From: Bacillus pumilus
GTDB taxonomy: Bacteria > Bacillota > Bacilli > Bacillales > Bacillaceae
Direction of reading: 5' to 3'
Length of the DNA: 64,000 bases
NCBI RefSeq assembly: GCF_900186955.1
Contig: NZ_LT906438.1
Span: 1,674,001-1,738,000, forward strand
The notes below the pieces were generated by a model, which ran no database searches, was not told the origin of the DNA, and was given only the letters and a program-made list of their open reading frames with translations. The position numbers were made by a program, and so were the translations under genes. Below, piece by piece: positions 5,688 to 55,473 of the stretch (positions are counted from its first letter, which is position 1; every line of letters begins with the position of its first letter).

Positions 5688-8600
5688 ATGGTTGAAGCTT
5701 TTTTGAAAAGAGGAAAGCTTGTTTTTATTTTATTTTTTATTGTTCTCATTGCTGGCGGCTATTTATTTACGCAGCTTCCTAAGCGAGAACTGCCAGAATT
5801 CCAAGCGAATATTGTCACAATTTCCACCGTGTTCCCAGGTGCGGATGCAAAACAGGTGGAAATTGATGTAACCAATAAGCTCGAATCAGCCATATCTGAT
5901 ATCAATGGTGTAGAGAAAACGAGCTCTGTTTCTGCTATTGGTTTTTCAAATATTGTGCTTGAAATTGATGATCAAGCCGACTTTCAAAAGGTGGCAAGTC
6001 AAATTAAGAACGAAACCACAAGTGCTGCATCGTCCTTTCCTGACGGAGTGATGGAGCCAGATGTAAAGGATGAGTTCGGCAACGTGCCCGTTGGTTCATA
6101 CATGATTGTGTCCAGTAAGTCATCAGACTTAGCAAAAAGTCAGGAATCGCTGCGTGCGTTGAAGGAAAAGGTTGAGGACATCAAAGGGGTAGACAGTGTC
6201 GTCATCAAAGGATTCAATGACAAGCAAGCGGTATTAAACTTAGATTCAAGCAAACTGGAGGAAGAAGGGTTAAATGTAACGGATGTCACAAATGCCATCA
6301 ATCAGGAGTTTGACACATCTCCACTAGGCGACATTCGGGCAGGCGGCGATAAGGTCAAGCTGTCCATCAATACCTACGACCGTTTGAATCAAGTGAAAAA
6401 GCTTGAGCTTTTCTCCAAAACGAACCGTGAACCGGTCACAATCAGTCAGCTTGGCAGCTTAAAAGAAGTAGAAAAAGAGAAAAGTGACATTGTGTCGTAT
6501 AACGGAGAGCCTGCCTATTCATTTACAGTCAATATCAAACCAGGGCTTGATATCCCTAAAATGTATAACAAAGTAAGTGATGTTATTGAGAAAGAGAAAG
6601 AGCTTCCAAGTGATGTCGAGTGGGTAAACTACTATTCACAAAAAAGTGAAGTGGATGCCATTTTTAATGATTTGATAAAAGAAGCCATTGTTGCGGTCAT
6701 CGCTGTTATTGTGGTCACCACACTTGGTCTGACCATTGGCGGTGCGTTCATCGTTTCACTTGCCATCCCATTATCAATCACAATCGGAACGATTCCGCTG
6801 CCATTTTTACAAGTGGACCTCAATCAGATATCGATTATCGGCTTTATCATTGCCCTAGGGATACTTGTCGATGATGCCATTGTCGTCAACGATAATATTT
6901 TAAGGCAGATGAAAAAATATGAAAGTCCGCTGAAAGGAACGATTGCAGGTGTCAAAGAAGTGGCAGGGTCTATTTTGACATCAACACTTGCGGTTGTGTT
7001 TGCTTTCTTGCCACTTGTTTTCCTATCAGGTGCAAACGGTTCATTTATACGAGCATTACCGTCTGTCCTCGTAACGACTGTACTTGCGTCTATGGTGATT
7101 TCTCTGACGCTAGTGCCAGTGTATCAATATACCGTGAACCGAAAAAGACAGAAAAAGAAAATTCAAAAGGAGCCAGGATTCCTAGGCAAACCGTTAAAAA
7201 AATTAGCTGATTTTTATGCAGACCGTGTGCTGACGAACATTGTGAAGCGTCCGCTGCTTATTGGCTTAAGTGGTTTGCTTGTTGCAACGCTTGCCTTTTT
7301 ACTGATTTTCGTCACACCATTTGAATTTTTCCCTGCAGCGAATAAGAAAGAAGTGGTTGTCACTGTCACACTTCCAAGTGAAACAACATTAGACAAAACA
7401 AATGAAACATTAGAGAAAATAGAACAAGAGATGAAACAGCAGAAAGGCATTGAAGAGACGGCGATCTTTGCAGGCGGCGGTGTACCGAACCTGTTTAATG
7501 AAAGTATCTCAAATGCAAGTGATCATACTGGTCAGGTTGTCGTGAGAGTAGACAATGATCAGATGACGAGTAAACAATTGATCGATCGTATGACAGAGCC
7601 ATTGCGTAAGAAATTTAAAGATGCTGATATCTTTATGAAAACCATTGTTCAAGGACCGCCAACTGGTGCACCTGTGACAGTAACCATTGCGGGTGACTCT
7701 TTTGCAAAGCTCATTGATGTCAAAGAAACGCTCACAAGTGAAATGAAAGAAAAAGGAGCGAGCTTGATCACTGACGATGTCAATCAGCCGGTAAAAACGA
7801 TCTCCTTTGAACTAAACCGTGACCGAATGGCAGAGGATGGCCTCAGCGCTCAGCTTGTCAGCAGACAGCTCGGTCTTGTGACAGAAGGCATGCCATTAGG
7901 CAGCTTTAAACAAGGAACAAAAGATATCGATTTAGTGGTCAAACAGGATGTAGGTACACATCAAAATGGATTAAAGCTAAAAGAAATAAAAGTGCCTGTT
8001 AATTCAAATGAAGGCGGTATGCCTTCACTCGAGCCACTTAGCCGATATGTAAAAGAAAAAGAAACAGAGCAGTACGAAAGCATTCCACATGAAAATGGAA
8101 TTCCGACCATTACGCTGAAGGCGTACCCTGGCACGTCAGAGTCGTTTAAAGGCGACATGAAAGAAGTCGTCGATCAAGTAGGAAAAACAGATGCAGCGAA
8201 GGATCTAGCTATTTCTCAAGGCGGAGAAAATGAAGATCAAACCAAGTTCTTTATTGAAATTAGTCTCTTATTTGGGGTTGTCTTGCTTCTCATTTATGTG
8301 ACCATCGCTTTCCAGTTCAATTCATTGATGCTTCCACTATTAGTTCTAGGAACGGTTTACTTAGCGATATCTGGAGCTGTTATCGGACTATTTGTCACAA
8401 AAACGCCGTTCAGCTTTATGGCAACAATGGGAATTGTCTCATTAGCTGGTATCGTGGTCCGAAATGCGGTTGTCTTGTTCGAATTTATTGAGCAGCGGCG
8501 TAAGCAGGGATTCGATCAACAGACAGCTGTCATTGAAGCGGGAAGAGCAAGGATTAGGCCAATTTTACTAACAGCATTTACGGCACTTGTTGCCCTAATG

Positions 8601-54788: not shown

Positions 54789-54832
54789 CCCCGATCTGTT
54801 TATTGATCAGATCGGGGTACTTTTTATTTTCG
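54789..54832. terminator. Terminator between the PAP2 gene and the frataxin-like gene
   Basis: CCCCGATCTG and CAGATCGGGG form a 10-bp stem around nine nt, followed by TACTTTTTATTTT on the plus strand. The opposite gene ends inside the tail. Confidence 0.85.
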
Positions 54833-55195
54833 CCAAAACGTTGAACAATCCGCTTTGTCTTCGATATTAAATTCGATGATTTTCTTTAGGAGAGGATAAT
54901 CAACTGGCAAGCTTTCCTTCATGCGAAACATCTTTTTTCCATGGTCGTAACCCGCTTGTACAATGTCAGCTGAAAAGTGATCAATTCCTTTTCCTTCTGG
55001 TGCGACTGAAATGTGATGTTTTGCCACGCTAAACCCAATAATAAATGTGCCATGGTCTGTGAACATGGGCTGATTCCAAGCAATTTTTGGCTCTAATTGA
55101 GGGAATGTGTCTAATATCCATTGTAAAATGTCTTGCGTGCGCTGCTTCAGCTCTGGATTACCAATATTGCCTACATATTCTTCAAACACATGCAT
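54824..55195 (-). CDS. fra: Frataxin-like iron chaperone (Fra/YdhG, DUF1801)
   Basis: This 123-aa protein resembles the B. subtilis frataxin-like protein (WNQPMFTDHGTFIIGFSVAK with KHHISVAPEGKGIDHFS, and the C-terminus EFNIEDKADCSTFWRK), which supplies iron for Fe-S cluster and heme assembly. RBS TTGGAGGATAA precedes ATG 55195. The only plausible promoter lies beyond a tRNA-like RNA 35 bp upstream on the same strand, so that RNA may form its 5' leader. Confidence 0.9.
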   Translation of the reverse strand: MHVFEEYVGNIGNPELKQRTQDILQWILDTFPQLEPKIAWNQPMFTDHGTFIIGFSVAKHHISVAPEGKGIDHFSADIVQAGYDHGKKMFRMKESLPVDYPLLKKIIEFNIEDKADCSTFWRK

Positions 55196-55229
55196 GATGT
55201 TTTATCCTCCAATTTCATCGACCTCATAA

Positions 55230-55426
55230 GCCTCAGACGGGATTCGAACCCGCACTCCTTTCGTAAGCATAGGCTAGGGGGCAACACGCTTCCCTACGGA
55301 ATTTCACCGACAGGAGTTTCACCTGTCTCAGCTCATTTGCTTTTCGGTGCTTCTGAAACCCTTGCCTTGCGACCCGCTAGCTACAATTTGTTTTACGGCG
55401 CTCTTCCCTTCTAGAGCTACTGAGGC
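55230..55426 (-). ncRNA. 197-nt tRNA-like RNA with a large insertion in place of the anticodon arm
   Basis: Read from 55426 down to 55230 on the minus strand, the ends pair as a 7-bp acceptor-like stem (GCCTCAG/CTGAGGC). After TA comes a D-arm-like hairpin GCTC-TAGAAGGGAA-GAGC, and the 3' side has a canonical T-arm GCGGG-TTCGAAT-CCCGT. Between them CGTAA/TTACG can pair like an anticodon stem, but about 120 nt fill the loop, with further helices (TAGCTAG/CTAGCCTA, CAGG/CCTG, two GGTGAAAYTCC hairpins). No CCA is encoded. It is too small for a complete group I intron and shows no such core motifs. A promoter lies at 55445-55473 and fra begins 35 bp beyond. Confidence 0.65.
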
Positions 55427-55444: not shown

Positions 55445-55473
55445 ATTATATAAAGAAACTGGATAAATGAAAA
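55445..55473 (-). promoter_or_regulatory. Promoter of the tRNA-like RNA (and fra)
   Basis: On the minus strand TTTTCA and TATAAT are 17 bp apart; the expected start point falls about ten bases before the acceptor-like stem. Confidence 0.7.

Follow-up and report, generated by a model that had tools for sequence, protein, structure and literature searches.

An apparently new family of tRNA-scaffolded RNAs in phage tRNA arrays, Bacilli chromosomes and plasmids

In tmRNA, tRNA-like ends carry a large extra domain with a pseudoknot, and the tRNA-like half is processed by RNase P. In the bacterial Y RNA YrlA, a tRNA-like module is joined to a Ro-binding stem. Phage tRNA arrays are usually read as a codon supply or as a replacement of tRNAs that have been cut. 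ROOL and GOLLD, which phages and prophages encode, often close to tRNA islands, are described as forming RNA nanocages; the examples are 659 nt and over 800 nt long (PMC12286853). For Listeria plasmids, the non-coding RNAs already described include Rli28, RatA, and the NiCo and fluoride riboswitches (PMC9484302, PMC6985202).

The RNA considered here is encoded on the minus strand of the window, the whole stretch of 64,000 nt of Bacillus pumilus DNA that was analysed, and is almost certainly a member of a stand-alone RNA family with a tRNA body. It shares with tRNA (RF00005) the acceptor stem, U8, the D-arm, the UUC T-loop, and the position of the anticodon arm, but has a domain of about 120 nt at the variable region and a loop without U33 that is complementary to this domain. 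As in tmRNA, of which phage copies also exist (L192, L207), tRNA-like ends carry a large extra domain; here, however, the D-arm and an anticodon-like arm are complete and the extra domain is at the variable region. YrlA is likewise a bacterial non-coding RNA with a tRNA-mimicking module, whereas in this family the free ends make the acceptor stem. ROOL and GOLLD are also structured RNAs of unknown role near phage or prophage tRNA islands, although at the example lengths given they are several times longer than the about 150-240 nt of the family members (PMC12286853). Phage decoy or replacement tRNAs come from similar arrays and have a tRNA shape with an altered variable region, but they are functional tRNAs, and decoding is not expected of this RNA.

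The family, with its architecture, appears to be new, in a sense that does not extend to function, and to be of tRNA ancestry. No prior description was found by titles and abstract openings in the open-licence PMC literature, which is weak evidence of novelty. An array member with a tRNA body but a seemingly hidden anticodon-like loop fits neither of the usual array roles. The RNA falls between tRNA finders and Rfam, and is present in sequenced, cultured phages, which give a direct experimental handle on it.

Anatomy and comparison with known RNA families

The features of the RNA and its flanks are given in Table 1. The order and strand of the acceptor stem, D-arm, and T-arm with TTCGAAT are those of an earlier note on this DNA. 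The same note had the anticodon arm replaced by an insertion; a large domain is present, but it is at the variable region and a separate anticodon-like arm persists (55398-55374). Where it had two GGTGAAAYTCC hairpins, the first copy (GACAGG/CCTGTC) is borne out by A-U to G-C changes and the second is without support. Pairing, proposed there as the test for structure, is kept across the homologues. The folding energy of the window RNA is ordinary (minimum free energy, z -1.49; 12 of 200 shuffles were equally good). Because this single-sequence fold is unremarkable, the case for the RNA is comparative, through homologues, covariation, and a model built from phage members, which recovers identical ends.

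Table 1. Features of the tRNA-scaffolded RNA and its flanks in the window.
Feature	Position	Strand	Remarks
tRNA-scaffolded RNA	55229..55426	-	198 nt including discriminator; basis: blastn homologues, model R1, phage-only model R2 (model positions 1-157)
Acceptor stem, 5' strand GCCTCAG	55420..55426	-	Partner 55230-55236; double changes in 2/7 pairs (A1), 5/7 (A3)
UA between acceptor stem and D-arm; one nucleotide between D-arm and anticodon-like arm		-	
D-arm	55400..55417	-	4-5 bp; zero double changes in A1 and A3
Anticodon-like arm CCGU/GCGG, A-rich loop	55374..55398	-	Columns 32/50: both sides changed in 14/25 (A1); double changes in 5/5 pairs (A3)
AACA in anticodon-like loop, candidate pseudoknot strand 1	55389..55392	-	Complements UGUU 55283-55286; A-U in this copy, replaced by G-C in L115 and in most phage members
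Structured stretch at variable region	55373-55254	-	120 nt
Variable-domain stem, 5' strand GCAAGGCAAGGG	55359..55370	-	Partner 55267-55279; one pair is G-C in 17, A-U in 5, C-G in 2 (A1)
Core, 5' strand GTTTCAGAAGCACCGAA	55343..55359	-	GCACCGA in 90/94 tallied members, partly selected via the search motif
Apical hairpin AGC/GCU	55330..55341	-	Invariant in A1, so that a covariation test is impossible
Peripheral hairpin GACAGG/CCUGUC	55309..55327	-	A-U to G-C double change in 9/22; missing from L008, L009, L015
Core, 3' strand GTAGGGAAGC	55288..55297	-	Common to Bacillus through Streptomyces phages; Quantum (L194) reads GGAGGGAAGC
UGUU, candidate pseudoknot strand 2	55283..55286	-	
Variable-domain stem, 3' strand	55267..55279	-	From alignment A1
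Small hairpin 5' of T-arm, GNRA-type loop	55255..55266	-	Outside the counted structures
T-arm GCGGG-TTCGAAT-CCCGT	55237..55253	-	Double changes in 4/5 pairs (A3)
Acceptor stem, 3' strand, and discriminator U	55230-55236; 55229	-	CCA not encoded in window copy
Promoter-like site TTTTCA-17-TATAAT	55445..55473	-	10/12 matches; 18 nt upstream of acceptor stem
fra-like DUF1801 gene (name from the earlier note)	54824..55195	-	Start 33 bp past discriminator

The tRNA criteria of a 7 bp acceptor stem, a D-arm, and a T-arm with the conserved elbow are seen in the RNA. Its variable region is 120 nt in the window, where a tRNA has a few to about 20 nt, and members are 152-240 nt overall. The anticodon-like loop has no U33, is often 8-10 nt, and is A-rich (AAAACGGA or AAAACA..GUAG), so that the 7 nt loop, U33, and readable anticodon of a tRNA are absent. 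Some distant members encode CCA (for example L104, L144, L182, L235, and L261). The small hairpin 5' of the T-arm changes from C-GAAA-G to G-GAAA-C in L016, L104, L144, and L182, and has GGAA and GCAA loops in L012 and L013.

ARAGORN predicted no tRNA or tmRNA in the window and, on the other loci given to it, no tRNA over the RNA except a tRNA-Met on the 3' part of L144. The Rfam scan of the window found no family at threshold, and low-threshold scans gave one unrelated weak match and then two weak ones. On the strand of the RNA itself the sole listing was tmRNA at 8.5 bits (threshold 47), over the T-arm; with the tmRNA models (RF00023/RF04321) L204 scored 7.6 bits against the same 47. No Rfam group I or II intron family was listed for the window at E values up to 10. 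Neither YrlA (library content for YrlA unchecked) nor, over the RNA, ROOL or GOLLD was listed in the Rfam scans made. The families described for Listeria plasmids in PMC9484302 and PMC6985202 (Rli28, RatA, NiCo, and fluoride) were considered as candidates and rejected, none of them being found over the RNA of the Listeria plasmid locus L041 by Rfam scan. A known Rfam family had been named as grounds for refutation, and here the outcome is divided. The window RNA is below every threshold and unmatched by RF00005, but L204 (38.9 bits) and L240 (34.9 bits), the only two phage members scanned as short stretches, are above the generic tRNA threshold of 29, a stretch of 95-96 nt taking the place of the model's 17 nt around the anticodon arm. 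That they pass this threshold supports tRNA ancestry.

Within the domain, Bacillus and the Streptomyces phages have the core strands around GCACCGAA and GUAGGGAAGCG in common and the peripheral hairpins are variable, one being dropped by a 16 nt deletion in L008, L009, and L015; the constancy of the core is overstated by the retrieval of many members with core motifs. Phage Quantum (L194) has a long apical insertion and an altered core, GGAGGGAAGCG. The CC-GAA/GUA-GG arrangement of the core presumably resembles a loop E motif. The idea that the core resembles part of 23S rRNA was dropped, the pattern having no matches in the window's own genome.

Distribution in phages, Bacilli, and plasmids

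In phages the RNA is mostly part of a tRNA gene array; in Bacilli it is encoded singly, by chromosomes as well as plasmids, and in many cases has its own promoter-like box. A tRNA gene is within 1 kb at 23 of the 31 viral loci, compared to two of the 79 bacterial and plasmid loci, where the viral set excludes L186 (from a bacterial genome) and the bacterial set contains near-duplicates. In 11 of these 23 no more than 8 nt separate the two, and wherever a tRNA was found the nearest one shares the strand of the RNA. The first distant member came from the tRNA cluster of genome G100 (L104), where the RNA follows tRNA genes for Glu, Ile, and Trp, and further members were found in IMG/VR contigs and Streptomyces phages. 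Seventeen records, representing 16 named Streptomyces phages (Comrade twice), match; the RNA sequence was inspected in eight and the other nine are supported by blastn alone. In 15 of the 17 there is no annotated feature under the match, and in JustBecause the unannotated RNA is between tRNA-Arg and tRNA-Asp. Blastn searches that used the RNAs of L246 and L261 found no named phages beyond those of Streptomyces.

Compared by blastn with 100 relatives, the RNA has matches in 27, which were sorted by hand into 19 near full length (own genome included), six partial or decayed, and two of the T-arm end only. Beyond close relatives, the alignments begin and end no more than 1-2 bases from the acceptor ends. 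The window's own genome has a single copy, the remaining matches being short. Model R1, run on a larger sample of 398 Bacilli, detected the RNA at 62 bits or more in 10 genomes, with one fragment, and most other matches were tRNA-sized. Nineteen plasmid records match, 16 of them with 80 % or more of the query aligned and identities of 86-94 %; eight of the 16 are from Listeria monocytogenes and the others from Bacillus, Priestia, Cytobacillus, and Peribacillus. In GTDB contigs, a pattern scan identified 65 loci, mainly in Bacillales genera, including one record flagged as contaminated (Acetivibrio). R1 matches all 86 sources given to it, these 65 loci among them (89 matches, three being second matches).

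For Bacillota outside Bacilli (299 genomes with R1, 398 with R2), many of the matches listed are tRNA-like, and no members were identified among the long matches that were examined. Six long R1 matches (L106-L111) each overlap one or two ordinary tRNAs, and the long R2 matches L309, L315, and L316 are without the core motif. The core strand GTAGGGAAGC is present in only 10 of the 72 whole-genome loci examined, all of them Bacilli members. Bacterial copies are sporadic, and some have decayed (G021, G031, G033, and G034), so the RNA is dispensable in bacteria.

No neighbouring gene family recurs at more than five of 83 loci, except an antisense frame over the RNA itself (eight loci); the comparison took in reading frames of 50 aa or more up to 4 kb away, or as far as the retrieved sequence extends. 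A TATAHT box at -40 to -12 is present in 34 of 78 upstream regions of bacterial and plasmid loci, compared to 31 of 618 control windows, and terminator-like sites follow 20 of 82 loci (four viral loci included) against 26 of 305 controls. The promoter scan of the window gave three sites against 2.2 +/- 1.6 in shuffles, which is not significant on its own. The consensus promoter that had been placed about ten bases upstream is present as a promoter-like site (10/12), at 18 nt.

Three loci, on a Listeria plasmid (L041) and in two Kurthia genomes (L154 and L169), have the RNA with similar promoter and terminator flanks, a likeness that suggests recent transfer of the entire transcription unit. 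In L136 (2646-2818, minus strand) and L160 (2167-2376, plus strand) there are second copies of the RNA, recognizable in the 3' part only, about 2 kb from the intact copy.

Covariation and the anticodon-like loop

Alignment A3 contains 14 of the 31 viral members. It excludes L194, L207, L220, L221, L234, L246, L289, L235, L241, and L256, as well as the main-type L183 and L184, L185 (RNA identical to that of L182), and the near-duplicates L197-L199 and L254. Of its cells, 93.0 % are paired, and this falls to 27.9-48.7 % when the partner strand is slid by 1-3 columns. Double changes are seen in 21 of 41 pairs, against a mean of 15.6 in shuffles, one of 500 of which reached 21. They are in the acceptor stem (5/7), anticodon-like arm (5/5), domain stem (6/6), apical stem (1/5), and T-arm (4/5), with none in the D-arm, core, or pseudoknot. 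In the Bacillus alignment (A1), 98.9 % of cells are paired and six of 49 pairs have double changes. The CACC/GGUG helix of R1 competes with a reading of CC/GG plus GC/GC in R2, both being invariant.

Covariance model R2 was built from these 14 phage sequences and includes no Bacillus chromosome or plasmid sequence. Against the 64 kb window it gave a single match, end to end at 55426..55229, with 87.4 bits and an E value of 1.8e-23, the E values being rough due to short calibration. Twelve intact main-family loci score 81.8-97.1 bits; L022 is unlisted at E 0.01, and the degenerate L171 and L152 score 37.4 and 28.3 bits.

There are 23 different acceptor 5' strands among 94 members, and all seven pairs are intact in 87 of these; the discriminator is A in 67, U in 25, C in one, and G in one. 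Acceptor sequence that varies while pairing holds argues against a single fixed aminoacyl identity. The tallies of 94 and, below, of 103 members contain near-duplicates, with L185 (L182), L197 (L191), and L186 (L104) being duplicates.

The anticodon-like loop, conserved in sequence where the acceptors vary, is complementary in a fixed register to sequence 3' of GUAGGGAAGC. The pairs are AACA/UGUU in the Bacillus group and L261, AACG/CGUU in L115 and most phages, and AAUG/CAUU in L207, with the wobble forms AAUG/CGUU, AAUA/UGUU, and AGCG/CGUU in L144, L046, L193, and L105. Pairing is complete over the four positions in 98 of the 103 readable members. Longer complements are seen in L246 (UAAAACG/CGUUUUA), L207 (AAAUGC/GCAUUU), and L261 (UAAACAGG/CCUGUUUG, the final pair being G-U). 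There are misfits of G-G in L104 and L182 (and their duplicates L186 and L185), of A-A in L221, and in L289.

In 22 representatives, 85 of 88 positions pair, compared to 81.2 with randomly dealt tails, and five of 20000 permutations were as good; for the nine distinct loop and tail combinations it was 474 of 20000, kinship being ignored in both. These tests omit L289, and the loop letters of L221 were assigned by eye. They supersede an earlier swap test (2/5000) that did not hold to one register and scored other complements for some members. Against a pseudoknot, none of its pairs is changed on both sides in A3, and the outermost pair fails in eight of 12 cells. On balance it is likely that the loop and the domain core form a pseudoknot, and this suggests a block on decoding.

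Candidate roles and alternative readings

A new structured RNA that mimics tRNA, one of the two readings in the earlier note, is supported by the homologues, the covariation, and the phage-only model R2. We infer that an RNA of phage tRNA arrays was probably captured by Bacilli and plasmids and there became an independent transcription unit. Its ends would be trimmed in the manner of a tRNA by RNase P and the 3' tRNA enzymes, giving a stable RNA, and the pseudoknot would lock the anticodon-like loop so that it does not decode. The RNA may then be a trans-acting, non-decoding mimic of tRNA, which would occupy a factor that binds or cuts tRNA, with the conserved core as the contact surface. The target could be the ribosome or a defence nuclease directed against anticodon or variable loops, and its occupation would spare translation for the phage or plasmid. 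Such a mimic or decoy is the most likely mechanism, held tentatively, and the explanatory chain as a whole is somewhat easier to doubt than to accept. To see in it a family of non-decoding mimics that crosses phyla, from the phages of Streptomyces and other hosts to Bacilli and plasmids, with a locked loop that jams a host tRNA-recognizing factor, is likewise a tentative reading.

A conserved core would also fit a ribozyme or aptamer, or else an assembly made of RNA only. A catalytic or small-molecule-binding core on a tRNA body that is mere stable scaffold would account for core strands that are near-constant while most outer helices drift, and for an anticodon-like loop that complements the core. 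This is rather unlikely, however, as no Rfam ribozyme or riboswitch was found over the RNA in the scans made, no cis-regulated gene is widely common, and the constancy of the core is inflated by motif retrieval and broken in Quantum. An assembly comparable to ROOL and GOLLD would share their genomic niche, the phage tRNA islands (PMC12286853), but this RNA is several times shorter than the examples given there and has no Rfam match to them, making this reading less probable still. Only slightly better placed is a role in translation, in which the RNA is aminoacylated and enters the ribosome like tmRNA, or stalls or rescues ribosomes. The GG of the D-loop, the UUC of the T-loop, the acceptor pairs, the prevalence of discriminator A (67/94), and the CCA encoded by L104, L144, L182, L235, and L261, among others, are as expected of such an RNA. 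The variable acceptors and discriminators are not. In the window, no tmRNA is called by ARAGORN, a program that outputs tag peptides, and L192 and L207 carry a separate tmRNA; it is therefore an unlikely role.

An interrupted tRNA, the other reading of the earlier note, would here have its variable region split by a small intron of a new kind, whose removal leaves a functional tRNA. The tRNA ends are intact, and short insertions split other tRNAs in the phage arrays L241 and L256. Nevertheless it is improbable, since removal of the domain leaves a loop without U33, often of 8-10 nt, that is apparently paired to the supposed intron and is conserved where the acceptors vary.

Least probable, to the point of being largely refuted, is the proposal that the RNA regulates fra in cis, as a leader responsive to iron or to the state of tRNA. 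The RNA is upstream of fra on the same strand, and the terminator scan of the window found no terminator between them, as had been stated, at a distance of 33 bp from the discriminator where 35 bp had been given. Yet fra was detected in 50 of the 100 relatives, most without the RNA beside it, and the RNA adjoins fra only in the B. pumilus group; elsewhere, homologues precede other genes or are in tRNA arrays. The conserved link to one gene or pathway that marks a cis-regulatory leader is thus not seen. In G031, G033, and G034 the fra frame is open behind a decayed RNA, and G035 has fra and no RNA match. The two are apart or on separate contigs in G001, G019, G025, G047 (RNA partial), and G064, and in G050, G051, G053, G066, G098, and G099 the RNA is present and fra was not found at the threshold used.

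Some further observations concern the phage loci and tRNA arrays. In Streptomyces phage LuckySocke (L199:796-950), the annotated gene 22 (L199:730-879, hypothetical protein) overlaps the beginning of the RNA and is perhaps a spurious reading frame. The array in L289, with 23 predicted tRNAs, has two divergent copies of the RNA (7551-7790 and 2160-2340, both on the minus strand), the second with a different anticodon-like loop and pseudoknot region. Beside the RNA in G100 there is an unusually long tRNA-Ile(UAU) prediction of 96 nt (L104:1365-1460, minus strand). In a tRNA-Leu(UAA) of L241 (4777-4942, minus strand) and of L256 (13962-14127, plus strand), the anticodon loop is split by only about 79 nt. 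The split apparently falls between U34 and A35, where the group I intron of cyanobacteria is located. The insert is far too short for a group I intron and is possibly a mini-intron. Short inserts that end GAGTTACTTCA are present in tRNAs at L241:8282-8421 (minus strand), L256:11710-11859 (plus strand), and L256:10721-10848 (plus strand), the first two of about 65 nt between the D-stem and the anticodon stem (anticodon GTT by eye), and L241 contains additional copies of GAGTTACTTCA.
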